From positions 1,736,001-1,800,000 of the forward strand of contig NZ_OX336253.1 of assembly GCF_946902045.1 (NCBI RefSeq): 64,000 nt of DNA, read 5' to 3'. Below are positions 39,609 to 62,900 of the stretch, in pieces (positions within the stretch are counted from its first letter, which is position 1; every line of letters begins with the position of its first letter). The DNA comes from Neisseria sp. Marseille-Q5346 (GTDB lineage: Bacteria; Pseudomonadota; Gammaproteobacteria; Burkholderiales; Neisseriaceae). A model generated the notes under the pieces. The model was not told the DNA's origin. It worked only from the letters and a program-made list of their open reading frames with translations, and did not search any database. Made by a program: the position numbers and the translations under genes.

Positions 39609-39651
39609 AAGCTGACAAAAAGTGACTTGTTAAGAAACAAGCTGACAAAAA
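39609..39651 (+). promoter_or_regulatory. Candidate enhancer (activator) site: paired 13-bp direct repeats
   Basis: AAGCTGACAAAAA occurs at 39609-39621 and again at 39639-39651, exactly 30 bp (about three helical turns) apart and 100-145 bp before the sigma-54 -24 element. Position and phasing fit binding by a sigma-54 activator; no activator is identified in the window. Confidence 0.45.
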
Positions 39652-39752
39652 ACGGCACATCGTTTCCCAAACTTCACAAGCTTCTGGAAATGTATCAGCA
39701 TAAAATCCCATAAAACAGGCTTTTAGCTGCTATTCGGCCGAGTGGAGACTTT

Positions 39753-39769
39753 TGGCACGGGAATTGCAT
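39753..39769 (+). promoter_or_regulatory. Sigma-54 (RpoN) promoter of the first adhesin
   Basis: TGGCACGGGAATTGCAT matches the consensus TGGCACG-N4-TTGCA; the -24 GG (39754-39755) and -12 GC (39766-39767) are exactly 12 bp apart start to start. Transcription should start near 39779. Confidence 0.82.
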
Positions 39770-39893
39770 ACAAGAGATTACGACGTAAAACCGCATAAAG
39801 GGGAGACTCTGAAGTGCGGCATATGTATGGGCAAGCGGTTTATGGCCGAGCAAACGTCCCAAAAGAAATCAAACCCCTTACAGGAAAATCGAT

Positions 39894-41549
39894 ATGAATA
39901 AAGTCTTTAAAGTTATTTGGAACCACGCGACCCAGACATGGACCGCGGTTTCCGAGATCAGCCATGCACACGGCAAAAAATCCGCTTCTGACAAGCGTAA
40001 AGCCGTAGCTGCTGCAGTGGTTGCAGCAGGTGCTTTGATGGCATCTAGCGGAGCAGAGGCCGATGTAAAATTGGGAGGTAGTGCAGTAAACATTACTCCT
40101 AATGGTACTTACAACGGTTCTAACAAAAACGTTGGTGTCAACTCTGTTGTAGTGGGTTATCAAAATACTGCCAGCGGCCAAGATGGCACTATCGCTTACG
40201 GTGCTAACAATACTGCGACTGCAAACGCAGCATTGGCTGTGGGTAATAACAATATCGCAACCGGCGGTGCATCGACTGCAATGGGTGTAAGCTCTGTTGC
40301 AAGTGGCGAAGCTTCTGTTGCAATCGGTAACGTAGCCCAAGCAACGCAAATTCGTGCGACTGCAGTAGGTAACCGTGCGACTGCTACTCAAGACTCCGCA
40401 AGTGCATTCGGTAACCGTGCAAATGCTGGCGCACAATTTGCAACAGCTATTGGTGACAACTCCAATGCAAATGCTGCTGCAGTTGCTGTAGGTACGCATG
40501 CGAACGCTGAAAAACAAGATTCTATCGCTATTGGTAACAACGCTCACGGTGCTTGGACAAATGCGATTGCTGTCGGTAAAGATAGCGTAGCAAAACAAGA
40601 CCACGCGATTGCAGCAGGTACTAGCGCAAATGCGTCAGGTATTCAAGCTGTCGGCGTTGGTTCATATACAAAAGCAGAAGGTAATCTGACAGTTGCGGTT
40701 GGTCCATATGCGCAAGCCAATAAAGAAGCTGCAGTTGCTGTAGGTTCTAATGCTACTGCTGCTGAGTCTAACTCTATTGCCGTGGGTCAAACTGCTACTG
40801 CGGCTAACAATAATTCCATTTCTATCGGTACTAAAACAGTTTCTAGAGGCGATAACGCAATTGGTATCGGTGCTTATGCTGAATCAACTGCTGCACGTGG
40901 TACCGCTATCGGCGTATTGTCTCAAGCGAATGGCGAAGGCTCATTTGCCGGTGGTGCATCTGCTCAAGCAGTAGGTACTAACTCTGTGGCTATTGGTGGT
41001 GCGACAGATGGTACTCTGGGTAATAAAGCAGGTACTGCTGCTAAAGCAACCGGTAACAACTCTATCGCTTTGGGTACTCAATCTAAAGCTGCTGGTAATA
41101 ACTCTATTGCACAAGGTACTGCTTCTAACGCTGCTGGCAATAACTCTATCGCTCAAGGTAATAGTGCAACTGCTAAGCAAGCTGCTGACGTTGCCGTAGG
41201 TCATGCTGCTACAGCTGATGGTACTTCTACTGGCGCTGATGCTGAAGGCGCAACAAACAAAGCTGGTTCAGCAATGGCAATCGGTACTGAAGCTCAAGCA
41301 ACCGGTATCGTAGCTACAGCCATCGGTGAGCGCTCTAAAGCTCTGGCAAACGGCGCAGTAGCATTGGGTGGCGATGCTCAAGCTAAAAAAGGTTCTGCCG
41401 TAGCAATCGGTCGCGGTTCTGTAGCGGACGGTATTTCTGCCGCTGCATTCGGTCCTGCTGCTCAAGCAACTGGTAAATACGCAGTAGCTTTGGGGTGTAC
41501 AAAGCCAAGCCACTTCAGAACAAGCCATCGCATTGGGCCGTGGTGCTAA
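39894..41549 (+). CDS. Trimeric autotransporter adhesin, N-terminal fragment (frameshifted)
   Basis: 551-residue fragment. Residues 1-25 are the extended signal peptide region ([22 protein letters not shown]) typical of large type V secreted proteins; the hydrophobic core ([18 protein letters not shown]) follows to ~56. Residues ~75-535 are a YadA-like head of short repeats of the AxAxGxxAxA type (for example [10 protein letters not shown] and [10 protein letters not shown]) forming a left-handed beta-roll. The frame ends in an unrelated tail ([17 protein letters not shown]) because of an extra G in GGGG 41492-41495. Removing one G restores [19 protein letters not shown] and joins it to the next frame. 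Codon use continues smoothly across the break. Confidence 0.85.
41492..41495 (+). other. Frameshift site (GGGG) within the first adhesin
   Basis: TTTGGGGTGTAC: with three Gs the head repeat continues in frame as [17 protein letters not shown]. With four Gs the frame stops at 41549. Four Gs is short for slipped-strand phase variation, so a pseudogene-making mutation or sequencing/assembly error is also possible. Confidence 0.85.
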
Positions 41550-44500
41550 AGCCAATGGCGGTGAATATGCAACTGCTCTGGGTAATGGTGCTCAAGCAAC
41601 AGCCAAAAACACTCTGGCTTTGGGCACAGAAGCTAAATCTACTATCGAAAACAGCGTAGCCCTGGGTAACGGTTCTACAACCAGCGCATTCGCACCTACT
41701 AACAGCGCTACTGTTGGCAATTACACTTACGGTGGTTTCGCAGGTGCAACCAGCAGCTTGAATAACGGCGCAGTATTGTCTGTAGGTTCTGCAGGTAACG
41801 AACGTCAAATTCAAAACGTTGCTGCAGGTCGTATCTCTTCAACTTCTACCGATGCAATCAACGGCTCTCAATTGTTTGCCGTAGCAAACCGCATCGAAAA
41901 CCTGAATCCGTTTGTATTCACAGGCCACAATGGCAGCGGTAGCTCACCAGCTGAAGGTACTTACAAATACGATCCTAAATCAAATGCCAATAACACTCTG
42001 AAACTGATCGCTGGTAACGGTTTGACAATGACCTCAAACGGCACTAACGAGTACACCCTGAGCGTAATCGGTGGTGGTTCTACTGGTGCTACCGGCGCTA
42101 CTGGTCCTAAAGGCGAAAAAGGCGATACCGGTCCTGCTGGCCCTAAAGGCGACAAAGGCGATAAAGGTGACACTGGCGCAGCCGGCGCTAAAGGCGACAA
42201 AGGTGACACTGGTGCAGCTGGCGCTAAAGGTGACACTGGTGCAGCTGGCGCTAAAGGCGACAAAGGTGACACTGGCGCAGCCGGCGCTAAAGGCGACAAA
42301 GGCGATAAAGGTGACACTGGTGCAGCCGGCGCTAAAGGCGACAAAGGTGACACTGGTGCAGCCGGCGCTAAAGGCGATAAAGGTGACACTGGTGCAGCCG
42401 GCGCTAAAGGCGACAAAGGCGATAAAGGTGACACTGGTGCAGCTGGCGCTAAAGGCGATAAAGGTGATACTGGTGCAGCCGGCGCTAAAGGCGACAAAGG
42501 TGACACTGGTGCAGCTGGCGCTAAAGGCGATAAAGGTGACACTGGTGCAGCTGGCGCTAAAGGCGACAAAGGTGACACTGGTGCAGCCGGCGCTAAAGGC
42601 GATAAAGGTGACACTGGTGCAGCTGGCGCTAAAGGCGACAAAGGTGACACTGGTGCAGCCGGCGCTAAAGGCGACAAAGGCGACAAAGGTGACACTGGTG
42701 CAGCCGGCGCTAAAGGCGACAAAGGTGACACTGGTGCAGCCGGCGCTAAAGGCGACAAAGGCGACAAAGGTGACACTGGTGCAGCCGGCGCTAAAGGTGA
42801 CAAAGGCGATAAAGGTGACACTGGTGCAGCCGGCGCTAAAGGCGACAAAGGCGACAAAGGTGACACTGGTGCAGCCGGCGCTAAAGGTGACACTGGTGAA
42901 AAAGGTGACACTGGTGAAAAAGGTGGCAGCATCACAGGTGAAGTTGTAGATAATGGTGACGGTACCCATACAATCACTATTACTGATCTTGAGACCGGTA
43001 CAGTCACTACTACCATCGTTAAAGACGGTAAAGACGGTGTAGATGGTAAGAATGCTAAAGCCGACGTTAAAGACAACGGCGATGGTACTCACACTGTAAC
43101 CATCACTGATGGCGAAGGTAATACCACTACTACTATCGTTAAAGACGGTAAGAACGCTGAAGCCGACGTTAAAGACAACGGCAACGGTACTCACACTGTA
43201 ACCATCAAAGACGGTAACGGTAATACCACTACTACCATCCTTAAAGACGGTGCTACTGGCGAAAAAGGTGACACTGGTGCAACCGGCGCTAAAGGCGACA
43301 AAGGCGACAAAGGCGACACTGGTGCAGCCGGCGCTAAAGGCGACAAAGGTGATACTGGTGCAGCTGGCGCTAAAGGCGACAAAGGTGACACTGGTGCAGC
43401 CGGCGCTAAAGGCGACAAAGGCGACAAAGGTGACACTGGTGCAGCCGGCGCTAAAGGTGACAAAGGCGATAAAGGTGACACTGGTGCAGCCGGCGCTAAA
43501 GGCGACAAAGGCGACAAAGGTGACACTGGTGCAGCCGGCGCTAAAGGTGACACTGGTGAAAAAGGTGACACTGGTGAAAAAGGTGGCAGCATCACAGGTG
43601 AAGTTGTAGATAATGGTGACGGTACCCATACAATCACTATTACTGATCTTGAGACCGGTACAGTCACTACTACCATCGTTAAAGACGGTAAAGACGGTGT
43701 AGATGGTAAGAATGCTAAAGCCGACGTTAAAGACAACGGCGATGGTACTCACACTGTAACCATCACTGATGGCGAAGGTAATACCACTACTACTATCGTT
43801 AAAGACGGTAAGAACGCTGAAGCCGACGTTAAAGACAACGGCAACGGTACTCACACTGTAACCATCAAAGACGGTAACGGTAATACCACTACTACCATCC
43901 TTAAAGACGGTGCTACTGGCGAAAAAGGTGACACTGGTGCAACCGGCGCTAAAGGCGACAAAGGCGACAAAGGCGACACTGGTGCAGCCGGCGCTAAAGG
44001 CGACAAAGGTGATACTGGTGCAGCTGGCGCTAAAGGCGACAAAGGTGATACTGGTGCAGCCGGCGCTAAAGGCGACAAAGGTGACACTGGTGCATCCGGC
44101 GCTAAAGGCGACAAAGGTGACACTGGTGCAGCCGGCGCTAAAGGCGACAAAGGCGATAAAGGTGACACTGGCGCAGCCGGTGCTAAAGGCGACAAAGGTG
44201 ATACTGGTGCAGCCGGCGCTAAAGGCGACAAAGGTGATAAAGGTGACACTGGTGCAGCCGGCGCTAAAGGCGACAAAGGCGACAGCATCACAGGTGAAGT
44301 TGTAGATAATGGTGACGGTACCCATACCATCACTATTACTAATCTAGGTGATGGCTCAGTCACTACTACCATCGTAAAAGACGGTAAAAACGGTAAAGAT
44401 GGTAAAGACGGTGCTACTGGCGCAGCCGGCGCTAAAGGCGACAAAGGTGACACTGGCGCAGCCGGCGCTAAAGGCGACAAAGGTGACACTGGTGCAACCG

Positions 44501-47500
44501 GCGCTAAAGGCGACAAAGGCGATAAAGGTGACACTGGTGAAAAAGGTGGCAGCATCACAGGTGAAGTTGTAGATAATGGTGACGGTACCCATACAATCAC
44601 TATTACTGATCTTGAGACCGGTTCAGTCACTACTACCATCGTTAAAGACGGTAAAGACGGTGTAGATGGTAAGAATGCTAAAGCCGACGTTAAAGACAAC
44701 GGCGATGGTACTCACACTGTAACTATCACTGATGGCGAAGGTAATACCACTACTACTATCATTAAAGACGGTAAGAACGCTGAAGCCGATGTTAAAGACA
44801 ACGGCAACGGTACTCACACTGTAACCATCAAAGACGGTAACGGTAACACCACTACTACCATCATTAAAGACGGTGCAACTGGTGCCAAAGGCGATACCGG
44901 CGCAACTGGTGCAACCGGTGCTGACGGTAAGAACGCTGAAGCCGATGTTAAAGACAACGGCAACGGTACTCACACTGTAACCATCAAAGACGGTAACGGT
45001 AACACCACTACTACCATCGTTAAAGACGGTGCAACTGGTGCTAAAGGTGACACTGGTGCCGACGGTAAGAACGCTGAAGCCGACGTTAAAGACAACGGCG
45101 ACGGTACTCATACTGTAACCATCAAAGACGGTAACGGTAACACCACTACTACCATCGTTAAAGACGGTGCAACTGGTGCCAAAGGTGACACTGGTGCAGA
45201 TGGTAAGAACGCTGAAGCCGACGTTAAAGACAACGGCGACGGTACTCACACTGTAACCATCAAAGACGGTAACGGTAACACTACTACTACCATCGTTAAA
45301 GACGGTAAGAACGCTGAAGCCGATGTTAAAGACAACGGCGACGGTACTCACACTGTAACCATCAAAGACGGTAACGGTAACACCACTACTACCATCATTA
45401 AAGATGGTGCAACTGGTGCCGACGGTAAGAACGCTGAAGCCGATGTTAAAGACAACGGCGACGGTACTCACACTGTAACCATTAAAGACGGTAACGGTAA
45501 CACTACTACTACCATCGTTAAAGACGGTAAGAACGCTGAAGCCGACGTTAAAGACAACGGCGACGGTACTCACACTGTAACCATCAAAGACGGTAACGGT
45601 AATACCACTACTACCATCGTTAAAGACGGTGCAACTGGTGCCAAAGGTGACACTGGTGCAGATGGTAAGAACGCTGAAGCCGACGTTAAAGACAACGGCG
45701 ACGGTACTCATACTGTAACCATCAAAGACGGTAACGGTAACACTACTACTACCATCATTAAAGACGGTAAGAACGCTGAAGCCGACGTTAAAGACAACGG
45801 CGACGGTACTCACACTGTAACCATCAAAGACGGTAACGGTAACACCACTACTACCATCGTTAAAGACGGTGCAACTGGTGCTAAAGGTGACACTGGTGCC
45901 GACGGTAAGAACGCTGAAGCCGACGTTAAAGACAACGGCGACGGTACTCATACTGTAACCATCAAAGACGGTAACGGTAACACCACTACTACCATCGTTA
46001 AAGACGGTGCAACTGGTGCTAAAGGTGACACTGGTGCAGATGGTAAGAACGCTGAAGCCGACGTTAAAGACAACGGCGACGGTACTCACACTGTAACCAT
46101 CAAAGACGGTAACGGTAACACCACTACTACCATCATTAAAGATGGTGCAACTGGTGCCGACGGTAAGAACGTTGAAGCCGACGTTAAAGACAACGGCGAC
46201 GGTACTCACACTGTAACCATCAAAGACGGTAACGGTAACACCACTACTACTATCATTAAAGACGGCACAGCTGCCGCAAAAGGTGATAAAGGTGACAAGG
46301 GTGATAAAGGTGATACCGGTGCTAAAGGTGACCAGGGTATTAAAGGTGACCAAGGCGCTAAAGGTGACAAAGGTGATACCGGTGCTAAAGGTGATCAAGG
46401 TATTAAAGGTGACCAAGGTGCTAAAGGCGACAAAGGTGACACTGGTGCCCAAGGTGCTAAAGGTGATACCGGTGCTAAAGGTGATACTGGTGCAGACGGT
46501 AAGAATGCCAAAGCCGACGTTAAAGACAACGGCAACGGCACTCACACTGTAACTATCACCGATGGCGACGGTAAAACTACTACCACTATCGTTAAAGACG
46601 GTAAGAACGCTGAAGCTGAAGTTAAAGACAACGGCGACGGTACTCATACTGTAACCATCAAAGACGGTAACGGTAACACCACTACCACTATCGTTAAAGA
46701 CGGTGCAACTGGTGCTAAAGGTGATACCGGTGCCAAAGGTGACCAAGGCGCTAAAGGTGACAAAGGTGATACCGGTGCTAAAGGTGACCAAGGTATTAAA
46801 GGTGACCAAGGTGCTAAAGGCGACAAAGGTGACACTGGTGCCCAAGGTGCTAAAGGTGATACCGGTGCCAAAGGTGACCAAGGCGACAAAGGCGTCAAAG
46901 GCGATACCGGTGCTAAAGGTGATACCGGTGCTAAAGGTGACACTGGTGCAGACGGTAAGAATGCTAAAGCTGACGTTAAAGACAACGGCAACGGCACTCA
47001 CACTGTAACTATCACCGATGGCGACGGTAATACCACTACCACTATCGTTAAAGACGGTGCAGACGGTAAGAACGCCAAAGCCGAAGTTAAAGACAACGGC
47101 AACGGTACTCACACTGTAACCATCACCGATGGCGACGGTAAAACTACTACCACTATCGTTAAAGACGGTAAGAACGCTGAAGCCGAAGTTAAAGACAACG
47201 GCAACGGCACTCACACTGTAACTGTCAAAGACGGTAACGGTAACACTACTACTACTATCGTTAAAGACGGTGCAACTGGCGCTACCGGTGCAACTGGTGC
47301 CAAAGGTGACCAAGGCGATAAAGGTGTCAAAGGCGACAAAGGCGATAAAGGTGACCAAGGTATTAAAGGTGACCAAGGCGCTAAAGGCGACAAAGGTGAC
47401 ACTGGTGCCCAAGGTGCTAAAGGTGATACCGGTGCTCAAGGTGCCAAAGGTGATACCGGCGCAACTGGTGCAACCGGCGACAATGGTAAGTCAGCTGAAG

Positions 47501-48330
47501 CTAAAGTTACACGTGATGATACTAAAGGTGAAACCACTATCACTGTTAGAAACCTGGATAAAGATGGTAAAGTCATCGGTACCACTTCTGAAGTTGTGAA
47601 AGATGGTAAGAACGCTGAAGCTAAAGTTGAAACTACAGCTAAAGGCGAACATACTGTAACCATCAAAGACGGCAACGGTAACACCACTACCACCATCATT
47701 AGAGATGGTAAAGATGGTAAAGACGGTAAAGATGCTGATGGTACCTTCGGTCTGCGTGATGAAGAGAACGCTGAAATCACCAAACCGCTGAATAACACTA
47801 TTCAGATTAAAGGTGGGGATACTATTACAGTTGACGGTCAGAATCTGGGGAAAAACGTCTCCGTTAAGAAAGACGGCGATGCGCTGAAAGTCAGCATGAA
47901 CCCTGATCTGCACGTTAATAGTGTTACTACTAACGAACTGAAAGCAGGTCCTGTAACCATCAACCAAGGTGGTATCGATGCCGGCAACACTACTATCCAA
48001 AATGTTGCTCCAGGTAAGAAAGGTACCGATGCGGTTAACGTTGACCAGCTGAACCAAAAATTCGGCGATGTGAACAGCAATGTGAACAAGGTTGACAACA
48101 ACGCCCGCGCAGGTGTGGCTCAAGCTCTGGCTACTGCCGGTCTGCCACAAGCTTACTTGCCAGGTAAGAGCATGCTGGCTATCGGTGGCGGTCACTACCG
48201 CGGTGAAACCGGTTACGCTGTCGGCTTCTCTAGCATCTCCGATGGTGGTAACTGGATCATCAAAGGTACTGCTTCCGGCAACTCACGTGGTCACTTCGGT
48301 GCTACCGCAGCAGTTGGTTACCAATGGTAA
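41533..48330 (+). CDS. Trimeric autotransporter adhesin, collagen-like stalk and anchor (frameshifted part)
   Basis: 2,265-codon frame that continues the upstream head; the true in-frame sequence extends back to about 41497. Order: last head repeats, neck ([29 protein letters not shown], about 41785-41900), then 94 uninterrupted Gly-X-Y triplets (42085-42930). Next come alternating beta-rich repeats of 34 residues ([20 protein letters not shown]..) and further Gly-X-Y runs (43249-43590, 43909-44286, about 44386-44550, 46280-46500, 46705-46950, 47270-47490). A short stalk ([20 protein letters not shown]) leads to a YadA anchor (residues ~2170-2265) ending in aromatic YQW. Alone it has no signal peptide and could not be secreted. 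Confidence 0.88.
42085..42930 (+). repeat. Collagen-like Gly-X-Y repeat array
   Basis: 94 consecutive Gly-X-Y triplets, mostly the 12-residue unit [12 protein letters not shown] (36 bp) with variants GDKGDK and GAKGDT. Proline occurs only in the first few triplets (GPK, GPA, GPK), so Lys-Gly-Asp charge pairs would stabilise any triple helix. Confidence 0.9.
42721..44040 (+). repeat. Perfect 660-bp tandem duplication in the first adhesin
   Basis: 42721-43380 and 43381-44040 are identical line by line; the first difference downstream is at 43389 versus 44049 (C versus T). Each unit holds a Gly-X-Y run plus three beta-rich modules. Confidence 0.9.
44770..46270 (+). repeat. Beta-rich 34-residue (102-bp) repeat array
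   Basis: About a dozen copies of a module reading [20 protein letters not shown] then [14 protein letters not shown], tandem or separated by short [11 protein letters not shown] linkers. Copies differ mainly at synonymous positions and Asp/Asn in NGD/NGN. Confidence 0.85.
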
Positions 48331-48335
48331 TCTGA

Positions 48336-48366
48336 CTTTCAGACGGCCTGAAAAGGCCGTCTGAAA
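48336..48366 (+). terminator. Inverted uptake-sequence hairpin after the first adhesin
   Basis: CTTTCAGACGGCCTGAAAAGGCCGTCTGAAAAG, arms in the order opposite to most pairs in the window. Confidence 0.75.
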
Positions 48367-48378
48367 AGACGAAGCAAA

Positions 48379-48411
48379 GTAAATGCGGCCTATTTAGGCC
48401 GCATTTTTTTA
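48379..48411 (+). terminator. Second, GC-rich intrinsic terminator
   Basis: AAATGCGGCCTATTTAGGCCGCATTTTTTT, a perfect 11-bp stem with T tail, giving the first adhesin a double terminator. Confidence 0.9.
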
Positions 48412-48502
48412 TGCTTAGATTATGTTTTGGGTTTATTTGATGAATTAATCGCAATAGTAGCCAAAGAGAAATGAATATATCTTTAGCAGTCTGTTGTAAT
48501 TT

Positions 48503-48547
48503 AAAAGGCCGTCTGAAACATCATTTAATGTTCCAGACGGCCTTTCT
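48503..48547 (-). terminator. Uptake-sequence terminator of dusA
   Basis: AAAAGGCCGTCTGAAACAT..ATGTTCCAGACGGCCTTT; the right arm has one inserted or changed base (TTCCAGACGG). Confidence 0.75.
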
Positions 48548-48567
48548 TTTATTCGCACTATATGCCA

Positions 48568-49572
48568 TTAATCCCAAATATTTGCGCGTTCGACTTCTTT
48601 CCATGCGTCTAAAATCAGGCTGCCGTCGTTGTCTTTCAGCAAAGTAGCATCTGAGAGCATACGGCGCCAAGTGCGGGCATTTTTTAGGCCGTGCATCAAG
48701 CCTAGTGCATGGCGGACGATATGGCGTAGGATGGTACCGCGTCCTGAGGCGATTTGTTCGTGGCTGTATGCGTATAGCCAAGCCGCTAAATCTGCGTATT
48801 GGATTGGTGCGTGTGCGTCGTTGTAAAACAGTGTATCCCAATCGCGCATCAGCATTGGATTGTGATAAGCCTCGCGCCCGATCATGACACCATCGACAAA
48901 TTTCAGATGCTCGGCTATTTCTTCGTTGGTGGTGATGCCGCCGTTAATTAAAATTTCTAAGTCGGGGAACTCTTGTTTCAAGCGGTAGACGTATTCATAT
49001 TTGAGTGGCGGAACTTCGCGGTTTTCTTTTGGAGATAAGCCGTCCAGCCAAGCATTGCGCGCATGGACGATAAATGTGCGGCAGGCTGTTTTTTCGCGAA
49101 GTGTTCCCACAAAATCTGCCACGACTTGATATTCTGTTTGTCTGTCTACGCCGATGCGGTGTTTGACCGTCACCGGAATTTCAACAGCATCCTGCATCGC
49201 ATTCAAACAATCTGCCACCAAATCTACATCATTCATCAGGCAGGCGCCGAAAGCGCCTTTTTGAACGCGTGGGCTGGGGCAGCCGCAATTTAGGTTGACT
49301 TCATTATAGCCATACGTCTCAGCTGCTTTAGCGGCGATTGCCAAGTCATGCGGATCTGAACCGCCAAGCTGTAAAGCTATCGGCTGCTCGCCTTCGTTGA
49401 AACTTAAAAAACGGTCTTTATCTCCATAAACCACCGCGCCTGAATTGACCATTTCGCTATAAAGCCAAGCATTGCGCGTAATTTGTCGCGCCATAAAGCG
49501 ATAGTGTCTGTCTGTCCAATCGAGCATGGGGGCAACAGACAAGCGGCGTGAAGGTAGGGAAGAAGCAGACAT
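48568..49572 (-). CDS. dusA: tRNA-dihydrouridine(20/20a) synthase
   Basis: 334-residue flavoenzyme. Motifs: RLSVAPMLDWTDRHYRFMARQI (residues ~10-31; the APMLDWTD form typifies DusA), LQLGGSDPHDLAIAA, catalytic cysteine in EVNLNCGCPSPRVQKGAFGACLM, and VTVKHRIGVD. I start at ATG 49572 (MSASSLPSRR); a TTG five codons upstream is also open. It lies between the two giant adhesin loci together with yciO, so both adhesins are embedded among housekeeping genes. Confidence 0.95.
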   Translation of the reverse strand: MSASSLPSRRLSVAPMLDWTDRHYRFMARQITRNAWLYSEMVNSGAVVYGDKDRFLSFNEGEQPIALQLGGSDPHDLAIAAKAAETYGYNEVNLNCGCPSPRVQKGAFGACLMNDVDLVADCLNAMQDAVEIPVTVKHRIGVDRQTEYQVVADFVGTLREKTACRTFIVHARNAWLDGLSPKENREVPPLKYEYVYRLKQEFPDLEILINGGITTNEEIAEHLKFVDGVMIGREAYHNPMLMRDWDTLFYNDAHAPIQYADLAAWLYAYSHEQIASGRGTILRHIVRHALGLMHGLKNARTWRRMLSDATLLKDNDGSLILDAWKEVERANIWD

Positions 49573-49770
49573 TGAGATGGCTTTCAAACAAAATAATGCA
49601 TTATATAGTGTATCAAATTGACTTTCGATATTAGCAGTAAATCAAAATGGTATATAAGGTGTTGTAGCTGAGGCTAAATCCATTCATGATGGTGGAAATC
49701 CAATATTCAGATGGCTAAATAAGTTTTAAAATACCAAACAGCAAACCATTAGAATGATAAGGAAAAAAAC

Positions 49771-50391
49771 ATGGCTCAATTTTTCGCCATCCATCCCGAT
49801 AATCCCCAAGACCGCCTCATCAAACAAGCCGCCGACATTGTCCGCAGTGGCGGCGTTATCGTTTACCCTACGGACTCCTGCTACGCGCTGGGTTGCAAAC
49901 TCGGCGACAAAAACGCGATGGAGCGCATTCTCGCGATTCGCAAAATCGATCAAAAACACCATCTGACCCTGATGTGTGCTGATTTGAGCGAATTGGGGAC
50001 TTACGCCAAAGTAGATAATGCCCAATTCCGCCAGCTCAAAGCAGCTACACCCGGCAGCTACACCTTTATCCTGCAAGCAACCAAAGAAGTGCCCAATCGC
50101 ACGCTTCACCCCAAACGTAAAACCATCGGCCTGCGTGTTCCCGATAACGCCACTGCCTTGGCACTTTTGCAAGAATTGGGCGAACCTATTTTAAGTTGCA
50201 CCCTTATGCTGCCTGAAGACGAAGAGCCATTGACCGATCCATACGAAATTCGAGACCGTCTTGAGCATGCTGTCGATCTGGTTATCGATGGCGGCTGGTG
50301 CGGTACTGAGCCGACGACGGTTATTGATATGACCGATGGTACCGAGCTGATTCGTCAAGGTAAGGGCGATATTGCCGTATTTGGTTTATAA
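49771..50391 (+). CDS. yciO: YciO family (Sua5/YrdC-like) protein
   Basis: 206-residue protein with the full YrdC/Sua5 core. MAQFFAIHPDNPQDRLIKQAADIV..GGVIVYPTDSCYALGCKLGDKNAMERI closely follows E. coli YciO in length and sequence. The RKIDQKHHLTLMC region replaces the KxR..S pattern of true threonylcarbamoyl-AMP synthases; TPGSYTFIL, KTIGLRVP and PTTVIDMTDG follow. YciO proteins bind nucleotides or RNA and may have weak TC-AMP activity. Good ribosome site (AAGGAAAAAAAC). Confidence 0.9.
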   Translation: MAQFFAIHPDNPQDRLIKQAADIVRSGGVIVYPTDSCYALGCKLGDKNAMERILAIRKIDQKHHLTLMCADLSELGTYAKVDNAQFRQLKAATPGSYTFILQATKEVPNRTLHPKRKTIGLRVPDNATALALLQELGEPILSCTLMLPEDEEPLTDPYEIRDRLEHAVDLVIDGGWCGTEPTTVIDMTDGTELIRQGKGDIAVFGL

Positions 50392-50526
50392 CACTCTCTG
50401 CGTTTACATCGGCTAGGGATGTGCCTATTCCTGCCATTATCGATCACAAGCTATATTGCTCAGTTATCGTCAGTTTATACAATCAAAACGTCTTTAAATT
50501 AAGCAATTGTTCAAAATCATTTCATC

Positions 50527-50560
50527 AAAGGCCGTCTGAAATCTTTCAGACGGCCTTTTC
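50527..50560 (+). terminator. Inverted uptake-sequence terminator after yciO
   Basis: AAAGGCCGTCTGAAATCTTTCAGACGGCCTTTT. Confidence 0.85.
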
Positions 50561-50604
50561 CATTTCTTAGAAAACAATTCATTTTAAATAAAATTCCAAG
50601 TAAT

Positions 50605-50621
50605 TGGCACGTGGCTTGCAT
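50605..50621 (+). promoter_or_regulatory. Sigma-54 (RpoN) promoter of the second adhesin
   Basis: TGGCACGTGGCTTGCAT fits TGGCACG-N4-TTGCA with GG (50606-50607) and GC (50618-50619) 12 bp apart, the same spacing and nearly the same sequence as the site in front of the first adhesin. Start predicted near 50631. Confidence 0.82.
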
Positions 50622-50964
50622 GATTACTGTGATTGCTGATGACTTGTCGACGGAATACAACATTACGCTTATTAATAAAAACATGACTGGAGAACTTTTA
50701 ATGATTGGTTTTTCTGTTCAAGCATCATGATTTTATTTAAAAATTAAAGATAATCGGTTGATATTTCTGACTAGCGGATATTTAGTAAGTATGAAATACT
50801 ATTTCACTTCGAGACAGTAAAAGACCTAAATTTTGTCTCAAAGTGACAATAAACGTCAGCTCGAAGCAAGTATTTGCTGGGAAATCTTCCGCAATAGACT
50901 TTTTAAAGTAGCGTCATGCTCATGCTCACGCTTTTACCTATCATAAAAAGAGAAAGACACACCT

Positions 50965-53900
50965 ATGAATAAGATATTTAAAGTTGTTTGGAACCGTACG
51001 ATTCAATCTTTTGTCGTAACTTCCGAATTGGCCAAAGGCCGAGTGAAATCGTCTGCAGAACAAAACAGTACAGATGTATCTGCTGAATCCGGTAAAAATG
51101 GTATCGCGACAGTTTTTAGATTGACAGTGATTTCGGCAGCTCTTTTGGGTGCAGGTAATTCGTATGCGGCAACTGCAGCACGAGGAAAAATTGAATTTGA
51201 TGCTGTAACCAGTGCGACTGCGGTTAGTGGTGCAACAGCGACCGGTATTGGTGCTCTGTCAGTAGGAGCATCAGCCAATGCTACGGCTAACGGTGCAGTT
51301 GCGGTAGGTACGAGTGCAAATGCAACACATAATAATAGCCTTGCTGTTGGTACAAATGCCAAGGCTACTCAAAATCATGCTGTTGCGATGGGTGCAGATA
51401 CAAGTGCAAGTAGTTCAAATGCAACAGCGATAGGTAAAAGTGCCAATGCTGTTTCTGCAGATTCAACAGCACTGGGCGCAGATTCCAAAGCAAATGGTAC
51501 GCAAGCGACAGCGGTAGGTAAGAATGCTCTTGCTGATAATACGAGCACAACAGCATTGGGTAATTCGGCGCAAGCATTTGGTATAGGCTCAATGGCTTTG
51601 GGCCAATCCAGCACATCAAGAGGTCAAAACGGCATTGCAATTGGCAGCGGTAGTCAGGCTGCAGCCAATGCGCAAAATGCCATTGCAATCGGTACCAATG
51701 CAGTGGGTTATCAAAGTGAGTCTATCGCCATAGGTAATTCAGCCCAAGCTCAAACTGGAAATACCATTGCCATTGGTAAAGGTGCAGTGGCAAATTCTCC
51801 AGGTTCGGGTAGTGCGCCATCAAGTGCTATTGCACTTGGTGCAGACGCGAATGCAACCGGACTTGGTACGATTGCTATTGGACGTGCATCTGAGGTTCTC
51901 TCCCAAAATAGTATGAATGTGAATGTAACTCACAATAATATTGCTATTGGTAATACGGCTCGAGTAGGCGATTCAAGTAGTTCTAAGATAACTCAGTCTA
52001 TTGCTATTGGTTCAGGTAACCGTGTTGATCCACAGGGCAGACCTGAGGGTGCGTGGGCAAAGGGAGACCAATCTATTGCGGTTGGCGGCAATGTCTTGGC
52101 TAATGGTAATTCATCTGTTGCTATTGGTGGTGATGATTTAGATTCGGTAGGTGGTACTCGATATTCTGGCAATGCAACGGATAAATTCATCAAATATAAT
52201 GAAAAAGGTGCAAAGACCGGTGAATATACGCTGAGCGGTAAAAGTCTGCGTGATATTTATAAAGAGATGACTGGTGATACGATGAATTACGGTTCTTATG
52301 GTAATACTATTGCCGGTCAAGGTTCTGTTGCATTGGGTGTGCAGTCTAATTCATCTGCCGATTTGTCTCTGGCTATCGGTACCAAATCTCAGGCCACTGC
52401 CTTTGGTGGTGTAGCTTTGGGTACAGGTGCGAAGGCTACTTTGCTGAACTCTGTGGCTTTGGGTACGGCTTCTAAAACCGATAAAGAAGGTCAGGCATAC
52501 GTTCAACGCGAAATTATGGGTGTAACCTACACTTGGGCAGGCGGTCAAACTACCGATGCCGGTGATGTTGTGTCTGTCGGTTCCAAAGGTTACGAACGCC
52601 AAATCATCAATGTATCCCCCGGCGATATTTCTGCTACTTCTACTGATGCCATCAACGGCTCTCAACTTTATGGTGTATTGAGTGCGCTCGAACGCATTCG
52701 TTATTTCTCTGTTAAGTCAACTGATGGTAGCACTGACGGCACCAAAAACTGGAATAACGATGGTGCGAAAGGTGCAAACTCAATTGCCATTGGCCCATCT
52801 GCATCTACGACAAGCGCAGCCACAAATGGTGTTGCTATCGGCAATCAGGCAAATGTTACAGGCGTCAATGCTGTTGCTTTGGGTAACGGTACTACTGCTT
52901 CTGTTCAAGACTCTGTTGCATTGGGTAATGGTGCCGTCGGCGCAGCCAATAATTTTGATGCGACAGCTAAAAATGCCTCATTCAAAAACGATAGTGGTGC
53001 TGCGACCAATGTCAGCTATGCTGCTTCTTCATCCTCTAAAACAGGCGCGGTTTCTGTAGGCAGTGCAGGCAATGAACGCCAAATTCAGAATGTTGCCGCA
53101 GGCCGTATTTCCGCTACTTCAACCGATGCGGTTAACGGTAGCCAACTGTACACCGTTATGAACAATGTTGGACACAATATCCAACAAAACGGTACAGACA
53201 AATCCCGTATCAACAACAACGGTACAGTCAACTACGCCGATGGCAATTTGACGACCGTTGCAATCACCGATGGCGAGAATGCATCAAAAGTTCAAATCAA
53301 CGTTACCCAAGGCACATTGTCTGTCGATAATAATGGCACAGTGTCCGCACCGACTGCCGGTGTAGCGACTGCCGGCGATGTAGCCAATGCCATCAATAAT
53401 GCCAAAATCACAACCAAGGTGGAGGCAGGCAGCAACACGCATGTCAATAAGACAACTTCAGGCAAAGAAACTACTTATACCGTCAGCGCAGATAAGGCAA
53501 CGGTACAAGTTTCCAATGCTTTGAATTTGACCTCTAATACTACAACTGCAGCCGATGGTTCCGTCACAACCGACTACAGCATCGACTTGGCGCAAGACAC
53601 CAAAGACGACATCCAAAAAGGTGTGGATGCCAAAACCACCGTTGACACCAAAGGCCTGACCTTCAACGGCGACAGCGGCAGCACTAATATCGAAAAACTC
53701 GGCTCTACCGTGACCGTTGCCGGCGACGACAACATCACCACCGAAGCCCAAGACGATAAAGTGACCGTTAAGCTGAACAAAGACCTGGTAGTGAACAGCG
53801 TCAAAGCCGGCGACACCACCGTTAACAACGACGGCGTTAAGATCGCAGGCGGTCCTAGCCTGACCAAGTCCGGTATCGATGCCGCCGGTAACAAAGTGAC

Positions 53901-56900
53901 CAACGTAGCGGATGGCGACCTCAATGCCAACAGCAAAGACGCCGTCAACGGCAGCCAACTGTTTGCGACCAACCAAAACGTCGCCAACAACGCCGCCAAT
54001 ATCGCCAAAGGCATCAACTTCGGCGGTACGACCGGCAGCAACAACTACGCATTGGGTGACACCATCAATGTCAAAGGCGACAGCAACATCATCAGCGAAA
54101 CCGTAGCCGGTGGTGCACAGTTGAAACTGGCCAAAGACATTACCGTCGACAGCGTTACCGCAGGCGACAGCAAACTGAATTCAGACGGCCTCACCATTAC
54201 CGGTGGCCCGAGTGTGACCAAGTCAGGCATCCATGCCGCCGGCAACAAGATCACCAACGTTGCCGCCGGTACCGATGACAACGACGCCGTCAACTACAGC
54301 CAGCTGAAACAGCAAAGCGCCGCCGCCCGTACCGAAGTACGTGCCGGTACCAACATCAAAGACGTGGTTAAAACGACCGGCGCCAACGGCCAAGACATCT
54401 ACACCGTCAACGCCAAAGGCACCACTGCGAGCGCAGGTTCCGACAAAGTGACCGTCACTGCTTCAGCAGCAGACGCGAACAACGTGACCGACTACAGCAT
54501 CGACTTGGCTGATAGCACCAAAGACGACATCCAAAAAGGTGTGGATGCCAAAACCACCGTTGACACCAAAGGCCTGACCTTCAACGGCGACAGCGGCAGC
54601 ACTAATATCGAAAAACTCGGCTCTACCGTGACCGTTGCCGGCGACGACAACATCACCACCGAAGCCCAAGACGATAAAGTGACCGTTAAGCTGAACAAAG
54701 ACCTGGTAGTGAACAGCGTCAAAGCCGGCGACACCACCGTTAACAACGACGGCGTTAAGATCGCAGGCGGTCCTAGCCTGACCAAGTCCGGTATCGATGC
54801 CGCCGGTAACAAAGTGACCAACGTAGCGGATGGCGACCTCAATGCCAACAGCAAAGACGCCGTCAACGGCAGCCAACTGTTTGCGACCAACCAAAACGTC
54901 GCCAACAACGCCGCCAATATCGCCAAAGGCATCAACTTCGGCGGTACGACCGGCAGCAACAACTACGCATTGGGTGACACCATCAATGTCAAAGGCGACA
55001 GCAACATCATCAGCGAAACCGTAGCCGGTGGTGCACAGTTGAAACTGGCCAAAGACATTACCGTCGACAGCGTTACCGCAGGCGACAGCAAACTGAATTC
55101 AGACGGCCTCACCATTACCGGTGGCCCGAGTGTGACCAAGTCAGGCATCCATGCCGCCGGCAACAAGATCACCAACGTTGCCGCCGGTACCGATGACAAC
55201 GACGCCGTCAACTACAGCCAGCTGAAACAGCAAAGCGCCGCCGCCCGTACCGAAGTACGTGCCGGTACCAACATCAAAGACGTGGTTAAAACGACCGGCG
55301 CCAACGGCCAAGACATCTACACCGTCAACGCCAAAGGCACCACTGCGAGCGCAGGTTCCGACAAAGTGACCGTCACTGCTTCAGCAGCAGACGCGAACAA
55401 CGTGACCGACTACAGCATCGACTTGGCTGATAGCACCAAAGACGACATCCAAAAAGGTGTGGATGCCAAAACCACCGTTGACACCAAAGGCCTGACCTTC
55501 AACGGCGACAGCGGCAGCACTAATATCGAAAAACTCGGCTCTACCGTGACCGTTGCCGGCGACGACAACATCACCACCGAAGCCCAAGACGATAAAGTGA
55601 CCGTCAAGCTGAACAAAGACCTGGTTGTAGACAGCGTCAAAGCCGGCGACACCACCGTTAACAACGACGGTGTGAAAGTAGGCGACGATGTCGCATTGAC
55701 CCAAGACGGCGTTAAAGCAGGTGACGTCAAACTGACCAAAGACGGTTTGAACAATGCCGGCAACAAAGTGACCAACGTAGCCGCCGGCGACCTCAATGCC
55801 AACAGCAAAGATGCCGTTAACGGCAGCCAACTGTTTGCGACCAACCAAAACGTCGCCAACAATGCCGCCAATATCGCCAAAGGCATTAACTTCGGCGGTA
55901 CCACCGGCAGCAACAACTACGCATTGGGCGACACCATCAATGTCAAAGGCGACAGCAACATCATCAGCGAAACCGTAGCCGGTGGTGCACAGCTGAAACT
56001 AGCCAAAGACATCACCGTTGACAGCGTCACCGCAGGCGACAGCAAACTGAATTCAGACGGCCTCACCATTACCGGTGGTCCGAGTGTGACCAAGTCAGGC
56101 ATCAATGCCGCCGGCAACAAGATTACTAACGTAGCCGCCGGTACCGACGATACCGATGCCGTTAACTACGGTCAGCTGAAAGAAACCAACGCCAATGTGG
56201 CCAAAGGTCTGAACATTGCTGCCGACAACGGTAACGACGACAACGTCCAACTGGGCGAAACCGTTGCCTACCGCAGCAGCGACAAAAACATCGTCACCAC
56301 CGTGTCCGACAACCAGATTGATTTCAAACTGGCCAAAGACATCACTGTTGACAGCGTCACCGCAGGCGACAGCAAACTGAATTCAGACGGCCTCACCATT
56401 ACCGGTGGCCCAAGTGTGACCAAGTCAGGCATCCATGCCGCCGGCAACAAGATCACCAACGTTGCCGCCGGTACCGATGACAACGACGCCGTCAACTACA
56501 GCCAGCTGAAACAGCAAAGCGCCGCCGCCCGTACCGAAGTACGTGCCGGTACCAACATCAAAGACGTGGTTAAAACGACCGGCGCCAACGGCCAAGACAT
56601 CTACACCGTCAACGCCAAAGGCACCACTGCGAGCGCAGGTTCCGACAAAGTGACCGTCACTGCTTCAGCAGCAGACGCGAACAACGTGACCGACTACAGC
56701 ATCGACTTGGCTGATAGCACCAAAGACGACATCCAAAAAGGTGTGGATGCCAAAACCACCGTTGACACCAAAGGCCTGACCTTCAACGGCGACAGCGGCA
56801 GCACTAATATCGAAAAACTCGGCTCCACCGTGACCGTTGCCGGTGACGACAACATCACCACCGAAGCCCAAGACGATAAAGTGACCGTTAAGCTGAACAA

Positions 56901-59900
56901 AGACCTGGTTGTAGACAGCGTCAAAGCCGGCGACACCACCGTGAACAACGACGGTGTGAAAGTAGGCGACGATGTCGCATTGACCCAAGACGGTGTTAAA
57001 GCAGGTGATGTCAAACTGACCAAAGACGGTTTGAACAACGCCGGCAACAAAGTGACCAACGTAGCCGCCGGTACCGAAGATACCGACGCTGTTAACTACG
57101 GTCAGCTGAAAGAGACCAACGCCAATGTGGCCAAAGGTCTGAACATTGCCGCCGACAACGGTAACGACGACAACGTCCAACTGGGCGAAACTGTTGCCTA
57201 CCGCAGCAGCGACAAAAACATCGTGACTACCGTGTCCGACAACCAGATTGACTTCAAACTGGCCAAAGACATCACCGTTGACAGCGTCACCGCAGGCGAC
57301 AGCAAACTGAATTCAGACGGCCTCACCATTACCGGTGGCCCAAGTGTGACCAAGTCAGGCATCCATGCCGCCGGCAACAAGATCACCAACGTTGCCGCCG
57401 GTACCGATGACAACGACGCCGTCAACTACAGCCAGCTGAAACAGCAAAGCGCCGCCGCCCGTACCGAAGTACGTGCCGGTACCAACATCAAAGACGTGGT
57501 TAAAACGACCGGCGCCAACGGCCAAGACATCTACACCGTCAACGCCAAAGGCACCACTGCGAGCGCAGGTTCCGACAAAGTGACCGTCACTGCTTCAGCA
57601 GCAGACGCGAACAACGTGACCGACTACAGCATCGACTTGGCTGATAGCACCAAAGACGACATCCAAAAAGGTGTGGATGCCAAAACCACCGTTGACACCA
57701 AAGGCCTGACCTTCAACGGCGACAGCGGCAGCACTAATATCGAAAAACTCGGCTCCACCGTGACCGTTGCCGGTGACGACAACATCACCACCGAAGCCCA
57801 AGACGATAAAGTGACCGTTAAGCTGAACAAAGACCTGGTTGTAGACAGCGTCAAAGCCGGCGACACCACCGTGAACAACGACGGTGTGAAAGTAGGCGAC
57901 GATGTCGCATTGACCCAAGACGGTGTTAAAGCAGGTGATGTCAAACTGACCAAAGACGGTTTGAACAACGCCGGCAACAAAGTGACCAACGTAGCCGCCG
58001 GCGACCTCAATGCCAACAGCAAAGATGCCGTTAACGGCAGCCAACTGTTTGCGACCAACCAAAACGTCGCCAACAATGCCGCCAATATCGCCAAAGGCAT
58101 TAACTTCGGCGGTACCACCGGCAGCAACAACTACGCATTGGGCGACACCATCAATGTCAAAGGCGACAGCAACATCATCAGCGAAACCGTAGCCGGTGGT
58201 GCACAGCTGAAACTAGCCAAAGACATCACCGTTGACAGCGTCACCGCAGGCGACAGCAAACTGAATTCAGACGGCCTCACCATTACCGGTGGTCCGAGTG
58301 TGACCAAGTCAGGCATCAATGCCGCCGGCAACAAGATTACTAACGTAGCCGCCGGTACCGACGATACCGATGCCGTTAACTACGGTCAGCTGAAAGAAAC
58401 CAACGCCAATGTGGCCAAAGGTCTGAACATTGCTGCCGACAACGGTAACGACGACAACGTCCAACTGGGCGAAACCGTTGCCTACCGCAGCAGCGACAAA
58501 AACATCGTCACCACCGTGTCCGACAACCAGATTGATTTCAAACTGGCCAAAGACATCACTGTTGACAGCGTCACCGCAGGCGACAGCAAACTGAATTCAG
58601 ACGGCCTCACCATTACCGGTGGCCCAAGTGTGACCAAGTCAGGCATCCATGCCGCCGGCAACAAGATCACCAACGTTGCCGCCGGTACCGATGACAACGA
58701 CGCCGTCAACTACAGCCAGCTGAAACAGCAAAGCGCCGCCGCCCGTACCGAAGTACGTGCCGGTACCAACATCAAAGACGTGGTTAAAACGACCGGCGCC
58801 AACGGCCAAGACATCTACACCGTCAACGCCAAAGGCACCACTGCGAGCGCAGGTTCCGACAAAGTGACCGTCACTGCTTCAGCAGCAGACGCGAACAACG
58901 TGACCGACTACAGCATCGACTTGGCTGATAGCACCAAAGACGACATCCAAAAAGGTGTGGATGCCAAAACCACCGTTGACACCAAAGGCCTGACCTTCAA
59001 CGGCGACAGCGGCAGCACTAATATCGAAAAACTCGGCTCCACCGTGACCGTTGCCGGTGACGACAACATCACCACCGAAGCCCAAGACGATAAAGTGACC
59101 GTTAAGCTGAACAAAGACCTGGTTGTAGACAGCGTCAAAGCCGGCGACACCACCGTGAACAACGACGGTGTGAAAGTAGGCGACGATGTCGCATTGACCC
59201 AAGACGGTGTTAAAGCAGGTGATGTCAAACTGACCAAAGACGGTTTGAACAACGCCGGCAACAAAGTGACCAACGTAGCCGCCGGTACCGAAGATACCGA
59301 CGCTGTTAACTACGGTCAGCTGAAAGAGACCAACGCCAATGTGGCCAAAGGTCTGAACATTGCCGCCGACAACGGTAACGACGACAACGTCCAACTGGGC
59401 GAAACTGTTGCCTACCGCAGCAGCGACAAAAACATCGTGACTACCGTGTCCGACAACCAGATTGACTTCAAACTGGCCAAAGACATCACCGTTGACAGCG
59501 TCACCGCAGGCGACAGCAAACTGAATTCAGACGGCCTCACCATTACCGGTGGCCCAAGTGTGACCAAGTCAGGCATCCATGCCGCCGGCAACAAGATCAC
59601 CAACGTTGCCGCCGGTACCGATGACAACGACGCCGTCAACTACAGCCAGCTGAAACAGCAAAGCGCCGCCGCCCGTACCGAAGTACGTGCCGGTACCAAC
59701 ATCAAAGACGTGGTTAAAACGACCGGCGCCAACGGCCAAGACATCTACACCGTCAACGCCAAAGGCACCACTGCGAGCGCAGGTTCCGACAAAGTGACCG
59801 TCACTGCTTCAGCAGCAGACGCGAACAACGTGACCGACTACAGCATCGACTTGGCTGATAGCACCAAAGACGACATCCAAAAAGGTGTGGATGCCAAAAC

Positions 59901-62900
59901 CACCGTTGACACCAAAGGCCTGACCTTCAACGGCGACAGCGGCAGCACTAATATCGAAAAACTCGGCTCCACCGTGACCGTTGCCGGTGACGACAACATC
60001 ACCACCGAAGCCCAAGACGATAAAGTGACCGTTAAGCTGAACAAAGACCTGGTTGTAGACAGCGTCAAAGCCGGCGACACCACCGTGAACAACGACGGTG
60101 TGAAAGTAGGCGACGATGTCGCATTGACCCAAGACGGTGTTAAAGCAGGTGATGTCAAACTGACCAAAGACGGTTTGAACAACGCCGGCAACAAAGTGAC
60201 CAACGTAGCCGCCGGTACCGAAGATACCGACGCTGTTAACTACGGTCAGCTGAAAGAGACCAACGCCAATGTGGCCAAAGGTCTGAACATTGCCGCCGAC
60301 AACGGTAACGACGACAACGTCCAACTGGGCGAAACTGTTGCCTACCGCAGCAGCGACAAAAACATCGTGACTACCGTGTCCGACAACCAGATTGACTTCA
60401 AACTGGCCAAAGACATCACTGTTGACAGCGTTACCGCAGGCGACAGCAAACTGAATTCAGACGGCCTCACCATTACCGGTGGTCCGAGTGTGACCAAGTC
60501 AGGCATCCATGCCGCCGGCAACAAGATCACCAACGTTGCCGCCGGTACCGATGACAACGACGCCGTCAACTACAGCCAGCTGAAACAGCAAAGCGCCGCC
60601 GCCCGTACCGAAGTACGTGCCGGTACCAACATCAAAGACGTGGTTAAAACGACCGGCGCCAACGGCCAAGACATCTACACCGTCAACGCCAAAGGCACCA
60701 CTGCGAGCGCAGGTTCCGACAAAGTGACCGTCACTGCTTCAGCAGCAGACGCGAACAACGTGACCGACTACAGCATCGACTTGGCTGATAGCACCAAAGA
60801 CGACATCCAAAAAGGTGTGGATGCCAAAACCACCGTTGACACCAAAGGCCTGACCTTCAACGGCGACAGCGGCAGCACTAATATCGAAAAACTCGGCTCT
60901 ACCGTGACCGTTGCCGGCGACGACAACATCACCACCGAAGCCCAAGACGATAAAGTGACCGTCAAGCTGAACAAAGACCTGGTTGTAGACAGCGTCAAAG
61001 CCGGCGACACCACCGTTAACAACGACGGTGTGAAAGTAGGCGACGATGTCGCATTGACCCAAGACGGCGTTAAAGCAGGTGACGTCAAACTGACCAAAGA
61101 CGGTTTGAACAATGCCGGCAACAAAGTGACCAACGTAGCCGCCGGCGACCTCAATGCCAACAGCAAAGATGCCGTTAACGGCAGCCAACTGTTTGCGACC
61201 AACCAAAACGTAGCGACCAACGCCGCCAATATCGCCAAAGGCATCAACTTCGGCGGTACCACAGGCAGCAACAACTACGCATTGGGCGACACCATCAACG
61301 TTAAAGGCGACAGCAACATCATCAGCGAAACCGTAGCCGGTGGTGCACAGCTGAAACTGGCCGATGTATTGAATGTCGGTCAAGCGGCTCCGGTGAAAAT
61401 CGATGGCGATAAAGGCGAAGTCAGCGGCTTGAGCAATACGACTTTGGGTGGCAGCGACTTTGCCCAAGGCAAACGTGCGGCGACTGAAGAGCAGCTGAAT
61501 GCAGCCCAAGATCAGTTAGTGAATGTATTGGGTGGCAATGCGGCCAATAATGGCGGCAACATCAGCATGACCGATATTGGTGGTACTGGTGAGAACAACA
61601 TTCACGATGCAATCAAAGCCGTTAATGCAACTGCCAATCTGCCTTTGACTTTCGGCGGCGACAGTGGCAAAGACGTTGAACGCAAACCGGGTACGAAGCT
61701 GAATATTGTTGGCGGTCAAACCGATGCAGCCAAACTTTCAGACGGCAATATCGGCGTTGTAGCGAATGGCTCTGATAAGTTGGAAGTCAAATTGGCTAAA
61801 GACTTGGCAGTTGACAGCGTGAAAGCCGGTGATACCACAGTCAATACTGATGGCGTGAAAGTTGGTGATGTCAACCTGACTAAAGCCGGCTTGAACAACG
61901 GCGGCAACAAGATTACCAACGTTGCAGCTGGTACCGATGATACTGATGCGGTGAATGTTGCTCAGTTGAACAAAGCTGCGGCTGCGGCTAAGACTAAAGT
62001 CGTTCAAGGCGATAACATTGTTGTTACTCAGGATGTCGGCGCCAATGGCCAAACCATTTATAAAGTAGCTACTGATAAAAACCTGAAAGTCGACAGCGTT
62101 ACCGCAGGCGATACTGTTATGAATAATGACGGTGTGAAAGTTGGCGATGATGTTGCATTGAACAAAGACGGCTTGAAAGCAGGTGATGTGAACCTGACCA
62201 AAGCTGGCTTGAACAACGGCGGCAATAAGATTACCAACGTTGCGGCCGGTACAGATGACACCGATGCAGTCAATGTTTCCCAACTGAAACAAGCTGCTGC
62301 TGCGTCTAAGACTGAAGTTGTTCAAGGTAAGAATATCGTTGTGACTCAGAAAACAGGCGACAAGGGTCAAACTGTTTACGAGGTGGCAACCGATAAAGAC
62401 TTGGACGTTGACAGCGTGAAAGCCGGCGATACTGCAGTGAACACTGACGGTGTGAAAGTGGGTGACGATGTTGCATTGAACAAAGACGGCTTGAAAGCAG
62501 GCAAGGTAAACCTGACTAAAGACGGCTTGGACAATGCAGGCAATAAAGTAACCAACGTAGCTGATGGCGACGTCAACGCCAACAGCAAAGATACCGTCAA
62601 CGGCAGCCAGTTGTACGCAACCAATCAAAACGTAGCCAACAACGCTGCGACTATCGCCAAAGGCATCAACTTCGGCGGTACGACCGGCAGCAACAACTAC
62701 GCGTTGGGCGACACCATCAACGTTAAAGGCGACAGCAACATCATCAGCGAAACCGTAGCCGGTGGCGCTCAACTGAAGTTGGCTGACGAGATTAGCGTGA
62801 AGACAGTGAATGCCGATACCTTCAAAGCAGGCGATACTGTGATGAATAACGACGGCGTGAAAGTCGGCGATAAAGTTGCGTTGAACAAAGACGGTCTGAC

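Follow-up and report, generated by a model that had tools for sequence, protein, structure and literature searches.

Two very large trimeric autotransporter adhesin genes of Neisseria sp. Marseille-Q5346, here called adhesin 1 and adhesin 2, are each preceded by an exact match to the -24/-12 promoter consensus of the sigma factor RpoN (sigma-54). It is very likely that both matches are RpoN promoters of the adhesin genes and belong to an adhesin regulon under RpoN and the PilR-type regulator Npa, most likely working with a downstream enhancer. The genes lie in the 64,000-nucleotide stretch that was analysed (contig NZ_OX336253.1, positions 1,736,001 to 1,800,000; the window). The case is built on the sites, on intact genes for RpoN and a candidate activator, on the recurrence of the sites across Neisseria with a preferred spacing to a second element, on their gene specificity, and on the finding that adhesin genes lack them in genomes without intact rpoN.

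Sigma-54 sites before the adhesins

Both sites show the GG-N10-GC arrangement with the TGGCAC/TTGC core exactly, as a preliminary description of this DNA had stated for the same two 17-mers. The distance to the ATG is 141 nt for adhesin 1 (ATG at 39894) and 360 nt for adhesin 2 (ATG at 50965). That description had seen no other such site in the window and had asked for a scan of the host genome. The exact pattern TGGCACG-N4-TTGCA is indeed found in the window at these two places only, and in the whole genome of 2,354,813 bases exact TGGCACG-N4-TTGCW again occurs only at the two adhesins, with no match to a reversed control pattern. With two mismatches allowed the window holds four matches to TGGCACG-N4-TTGCA, fewer than the 10.7 in shuffled sequence, and the genome has 32 one-mismatch sites against 16 for the control. 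Among the 30 loci fetched from these 32, only three sites lie outside open reading frames (ORFs) of at least 100 amino acids: those of the adhesins and a third that adjoins rtcR. This third site (L016:1501-1516, minus strand) is intergenic and precedes, at a distance of over 800 bases, a divergent ORF without a Pfam identification.

A looser score was also used, in which at least 9 of the 11 fixed bases must match, GG and GC are obligatory and the site lies within 600 bp upstream. Three of the 54 window ORFs of at least 200 amino acids reach it: both adhesins and a minus-strand ORF whose start is at 3304; this third match is within chance, because 2.7% of shuffled adhesin upstream regions score equally high.

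The preliminary description would have counted the lack of an intact rpoN as a refutation and had asked for a search for sigma-54 activators in the host; both rpoN and activators were found. The rpoN gene encodes 451 amino acids with the activator-interacting, core-binding and DNA-binding domains (three Pfam domains). Searching the genome for the sigma-54 interaction domain gave two strong matches, and four others that are weak but above the cut-off. One strong match is RtcR, which is above its NCBIfam cut-off. The other is a 542-residue PilR/Npa-like response regulator with receiver, AAA+ and Fis-type helix-turn-helix domains, whose gene stands directly behind a histidine kinase gene and is followed by an RsmJ-like one, in agreement with the nps-npa-rsmJ order described for several commensal Neisseria (PMC6528607, cited here and below from excerpts).

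The same looser score was then applied to the 600 bp upstream of genes with ESPR signal peptides, which occur in all of 46 Neisseria genomes sampled. From 111 ESPR matches 110 were used (one at a contig start was left out); six with short upstream DNA and two unclear ones were set aside, and the rest were assigned by eye, from the N-terminal sequence, to the trimeric-autotransporter or the two-partner type. A site is present before 41 of 72 genes of the trimeric-autotransporter type in the sense direction, compared with 0/72 in antisense and 2.7% of 14,400 shuffles. The two-partner type has 0/30 in sense and 3/30 in antisense. When similar upstream regions are clustered, 24 of 52 adhesin clusters are positive, none of the 52 in antisense and none of 19 two-partner clusters. 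Divided by the state of rpoN, sites stand before 41 of 61 adhesin genes in genomes where it is intact or near-intact and before none of 11 where it is not (Fisher p 2.8e-5, kinship ignored); per genome the figures are 30/36 and 0/5. The five genomes without intact rpoN are G017, G018, G020, G031 and G034, two of which are incomplete assemblies. Close relatives of the window's own genes keep the sites: the adhesin 1 promoter is unchanged in four related loci and differs at the first base in G036, and adhesin 2 orthologues match at 9 to 11 of 11 bases. YadA heads were found in all five relatives scanned. The exact short pattern as such is not rare in the genus (57 matches in 31 of the 46 genomes versus 33 for the reversed control, with nine of 18 chosen stretches before ESPR adhesin genes and nine not), so position, recurrence and partner elements outweigh the count. 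Together with the pilE-type repeat at both adhesins, described next, the 46 genomes support the earlier suggestion of an RpoN surface-adhesion regulon that includes trimeric autotransporters.

Activator repeats, leader palindromes and the TpgA-like operon

At pilE of this genome, CTGACAAAAAACGTCA occurs twice, upstream of TGGCACACCGACTGC. The third-best match to this repeat in the genome, after both pilE copies, is CTGACAAAAAACGGCA, upstream of the adhesin 1 promoter. A weaker copy next to it, CTGACAAAAAGTGACT, is kept at -167 in four adhesin 1 promoters of relatives (G014, G025 twice, G037), not in G036. At adhesin 2 the repeat lies on the other side, downstream of the promoter and within the leader; this palindrome, GTGACAATAAACGTCA, is one of six genome sites with two mismatches to the pilE repeat. 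Nine genome sites are within two mismatches, of which four were looked at, and up to three mismatches there are 60 against 50 for a control. In meningococci, a sequence resembling the Pseudomonas aeruginosa upstream activating sequence (UAS), TcTGACAaaaaacGtCA, precedes class II pilE, and RpoN was found not to matter there (excerpts of PMC6755734).

The downstream placement is the usual one in the genus. The leader set comprised 41 adhesin promoters and nine promoters of a TpgA-like operon (nine of 12, three close copies being left out; near-identical copies were otherwise kept), and 49 of the 50 leaders are at least 100 nt long. TGACA-N5-TGTCA is matched at 9/10 or better in 36 of these 49 (29/40 adhesin, 7/9 TpgA-like), compared with 0.65% of shuffles. 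Twenty-four of the 36 palindromes are centred at +151 to +157, five (those of adhesin 2 and close relatives) at +220 and seven elsewhere. The adhesin 1 group has no leader palindrome but upstream repeats, save G036 with neither clearly. A further box, GATAANCGG, was scored in 42 leaders: 16 have it exactly, compared with 0.27% of shuffles, and 27 have it at 7/8 or better, compared with 5.4%; in 24 of these 27 it lies 92-99 bp before the palindrome. In the +220 group the distance from box to palindrome is the same and the promoter is further off. A count of 6-mers in the leaders yielded mainly A/T words. A site for IHF was tried as the middle element and is weakly enriched, the GATAANCGG box being much stronger against shuffles; adhesin 2 itself has a 9/9 match to the IHF consensus.

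The arrangement was also found by a search that makes no reference to genes. A pattern of promoter, 145-175 bases and palindrome was run on 83 Neisseriaceae genomes, 46 of Neisseria and 37 of 11 other genera. It gave 28 matches in 20 of the 46 Neisseria genomes, none in the 37 others, and no control matches. Seventeen of the 28 precede adhesins, ten precede the two-gene TpgA-like operon and one (L239) neither. Adhesin 2 of the window is beyond the distance range of the pattern, and the match in this genome is the operon (G000:C1:1537915-1538101). The opposite order, with the palindrome 105-135 bases before the promoter, gave 17 matches in 16 genomes and no control match; 14 are before type IV pilins, including pilE of this genome, two are near contig edges and one is elsewhere. 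G016 has the pilE-type promoter arrangement twice (L285 and L298), both times ending near a contig edge.

The operon thus carries a sigma-54 site with downstream palindrome, the same module as the adhesins (locus L237 in this genome). Its first product is a lipoprotein-like protein of 171 amino acids with a BamE domain. The best NCBIfam match is TpgA, with 47.8 bits against a cut-off of 350 and over the N-terminal part only, which is why it is called TpgA-like here; the best solved relative is also TpgA (PDB 9vnj). The second product has a YkuD match below the Pfam cut-off. Relatives of the first product exist in 45 of the 46 Neisseria genomes. Of 69 rows in the placement table 45 were used (mostly weaker paralogues were left out), and 30 with sequence were scanned. 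In 18 of the 45 tabulated places an ESPR gene of the same strand precedes the TpgA-like gene at a distance of at most 13 kb. None of the seven scanned genes linked in this way has a sigma-54 site of its own, compared with 12 of the 23 unlinked ones, and in 10 of these 12 a palindrome is found at +144 to +146; the antisense score is at least 9 in three of the 30 scanned upstream regions. Since, among the scanned genes, sites of their own were seen at unlinked ones only, partner and adhesin may share control whether they are linked or not. Upstream of the TpgA-like genes of G005, G023 and G015 (L261, L263, L269) there is TGGTAATGTTCTTGCAT, which matches 8/11 and has no palindrome, possibly a relic promoter.

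Adhesin 2 has the parts that define a trimeric autotransporter (ESPR or signal peptide, YadA head and YadA anchor) in one frame, while in adhesin 1 they are spread over two: an apparent frameshift near 41533-41549 parts the head from the anchor. The orthologue at L069 is open throughout the 1,286 codons read and related copies stay open; the break may be real or a sequencing error. In G025 two nearly equal adhesin 1 loci (L070 and L071) lie near both ends of one contig, either a duplication or an assembly overlap. The preliminary description does not mention the activator repeats or that they can lie downstream, the shared module at the TpgA-like operon, or this frame break.

Table 1. Promoter, activator and coding features of the two adhesin loci (window coordinates).
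Feature	Position	Strand	Remarks
Weaker upstream repeat copy, adhesin 1 (CTGACAAAAAGTGACT)	39612..39627	+	12/16 bases of the pilE repeat
Upstream activator repeat, adhesin 1 (putative; CTGACAAAAAACGGCA)	39642..39657	+	1 mismatch to the pilE repeat
Sigma-54 -24/-12 promoter of adhesin 1 (predicted; TGGCACGGGAATTGCAT)	39753-39769	+	exact consensus; predicted start ~39779
Adhesin 1, first open frame	39894..41549	+	ESPR and YadA heads
Adhesin 1, second open frame (other frame)	41533..48330	+	collagen-like repeats, CFSR repeats, YadA anchor
Sigma-54 -24/-12 promoter of adhesin 2 (predicted; TGGCACGTGGCTTGCAT)	50605-50621	+	exact consensus; predicted start ~50631
GATAATCGG box in leader, adhesin 2	50749..50757	+	95 bp before the palindrome
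Downstream activator palindrome, adhesin 2 (putative; GTGACAATAAACGTCA)	50843..50858	+	2 mismatches to the pilE repeat; centre ~+220
Adhesin 2	50965..63351	+	4128 aa; ESPR, YadA heads, stalks, anchor

Proposed mechanism and alternatives

In the mechanism that we propose, RpoN polymerase would sit closed at the -24/-12 sites and would be opened by the phosphorylated PilR-type regulator Npa, which would bind palindromes of the form TGACA-N5-YGTCA. The putative binding sites are upstream of the promoter at adhesin 1, as they are at pilE. For adhesin 2 and for the majority of these adhesins in the genus, the palindrome would act from downstream, within the transcribed leader, and therefore the DNA would have to loop back to the polymerase. 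Pilus, adhesins and the TpgA-like partner would rise together, because the same downstream module precedes the TpgA-like operon. For the genus as a whole it is probable, with less confidence than for the two promoters, that RpoN-bearing Neisseria have a pilus-adhesin regulon with one activator and two mirror-image layouts, upstream at pilins and downstream at trimeric autotransporters and the TpgA-like operon, where the palindrome is in the leader at a preferred distance and GATAANCGG is a third conserved box between. This adhesin branch was found neither in genomes that lack an intact rpoN nor in G005, G009 and G039, where rpoN is kept.

Several observations weigh against this proposal. No site scoring at least 9 was found before 31 of the 72 adhesin-type genes, nor in six of the 36 rpoN-bearing genomes (G005, G009, G033, G035, G039, G044). 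In G042, where the rpoN match consists of two pieces and has an internal stop, adhesin and partner promoters are kept, and in G020 the pilE arrangement persists despite a broken rpoN; sites can thus outlive RpoN. The Npa-like protein falls below every NCBIfam cut-off shown, so that it is gene order and domains that give it its name. IHF matches of at least 8 occur in 25 of 42 leaders against 39% of shuffles, a weak enrichment, and the counts allow for kinship through clustering only. Near adhesin 1 there are five sigma-70-like matches in 39300-39900, four on the plus strand, where 2.0 (standard deviation 1.5) are expected. The statement in the preliminary description that each sigma-54 site is the only promoter-like element near its adhesin was thus overstated for adhesin 1; at adhesin 2 the two sigma-70-like matches in 50380-50970 are both on the minus strand.

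A first alternative keeps the RpoN-dependent promoters and gives the leader palindrome a negative role: Npa or another factor at about +150 to +220 would block the elongating polymerase, and activation would come through unseen upstream sites or from Npa in solution. A protein bound in the transcribed leader could act as such a block, and the palindrome would indeed be inside the transcribed region. The same repeat, however, stands upstream of pilE, and no upstream palindrome at 9/10 or better is found near 49 of the 50 promoters, which makes this explanation unlikely, if worth keeping in mind. Somewhat less likely still is that the sites are relics and that the adhesins are transcribed from sigma-70 promoters, as has been reported for meningococcal pilE. 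The sigma-70-like matches near adhesin 1, the pilE sites in G020 and the frameshift in adhesin 1 itself would fit, but rpoN and the activator gene are intact in this genome, the sites are conserved in diverged leaders, and adhesin genes of genomes without intact rpoN do not have them. It is very improbable that the leader palindrome is an RNA hairpin or attenuator and not a DNA site: it would be transcribed and 16 of the 36 palindromes could form five base pairs, but 20 cannot form all five, and in 17 the right arm is CGTCA, as in the pilE repeat, which is untranscribed. Chance resemblance to the consensus, suggested by the frequency of one-mismatch sites and by the exact matches elsewhere in the genus, can practically be dismissed, since both exact genome sites precede adhesins and the 46-genome test and the gene-blind search show strand bias, gene specificity and preferred spacing.

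Relation to known systems

In Neisseria, RpoN is known for pilE; among papers listed from the PMC open library, titles and the beginnings of abstracts gave no report of RpoN control of a Neisseria trimeric autotransporter. If the proposal is true, commensals turn on pili and very large adhesins by one signal, and the loss of rpoN in pathogens rewired adhesion beyond the pilin. A downstream enhancer that recurs at a preferred distance would also lend itself to studies of how sigma-54 can be activated from behind the polymerase. Francke et al. (2011) proposed sigma-54 as a controller of the cell exterior, and cited Neisseria with an inactive sigma-54 and no obvious activators (excerpts of PMC3162934).

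The closest known system is pilE of Neisseria elongata, which is reported to be controlled by RpoN, IHF and Nps/Npa and to be the only type IV pilus gene so controlled (PMC6528607). Common to both are the RpoN -24/-12 promoter, a PilR-type activator and a related activator repeat; here, the predicted targets are trimeric autotransporters and the TpgA-like operon, and the repeat is usually downstream. In the capsule locus of Neisseria musculi a putative sigma-54 site and an Npa UAS have been described, so that both proposals extend Npa/RpoN control beyond pilin to another surface structure, a capsule there and adhesins here; the excerpts of PMC9140248 mention no downstream site. Pairs of trimeric autotransporters and TpgA-like proteins have been reported with Neisseria among the genera named (excerpts of PMC13082670). 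The tie of a BamE-domain lipoprotein to trimeric autotransporters is common to both, while here the match is N-terminal only and scores below the cut-off, and the link is also by promoter. A precedent for a sigma-54 activator with downstream sites is FleQ of P. aeruginosa, with enhancer sites "upstream or atypically downstream" (title of Jyot 2002, cited in PMC10723142). Activator and genes are different ones, and in Neisseria it would be a PilR-type regulator that acts from a preferred distance near +154.

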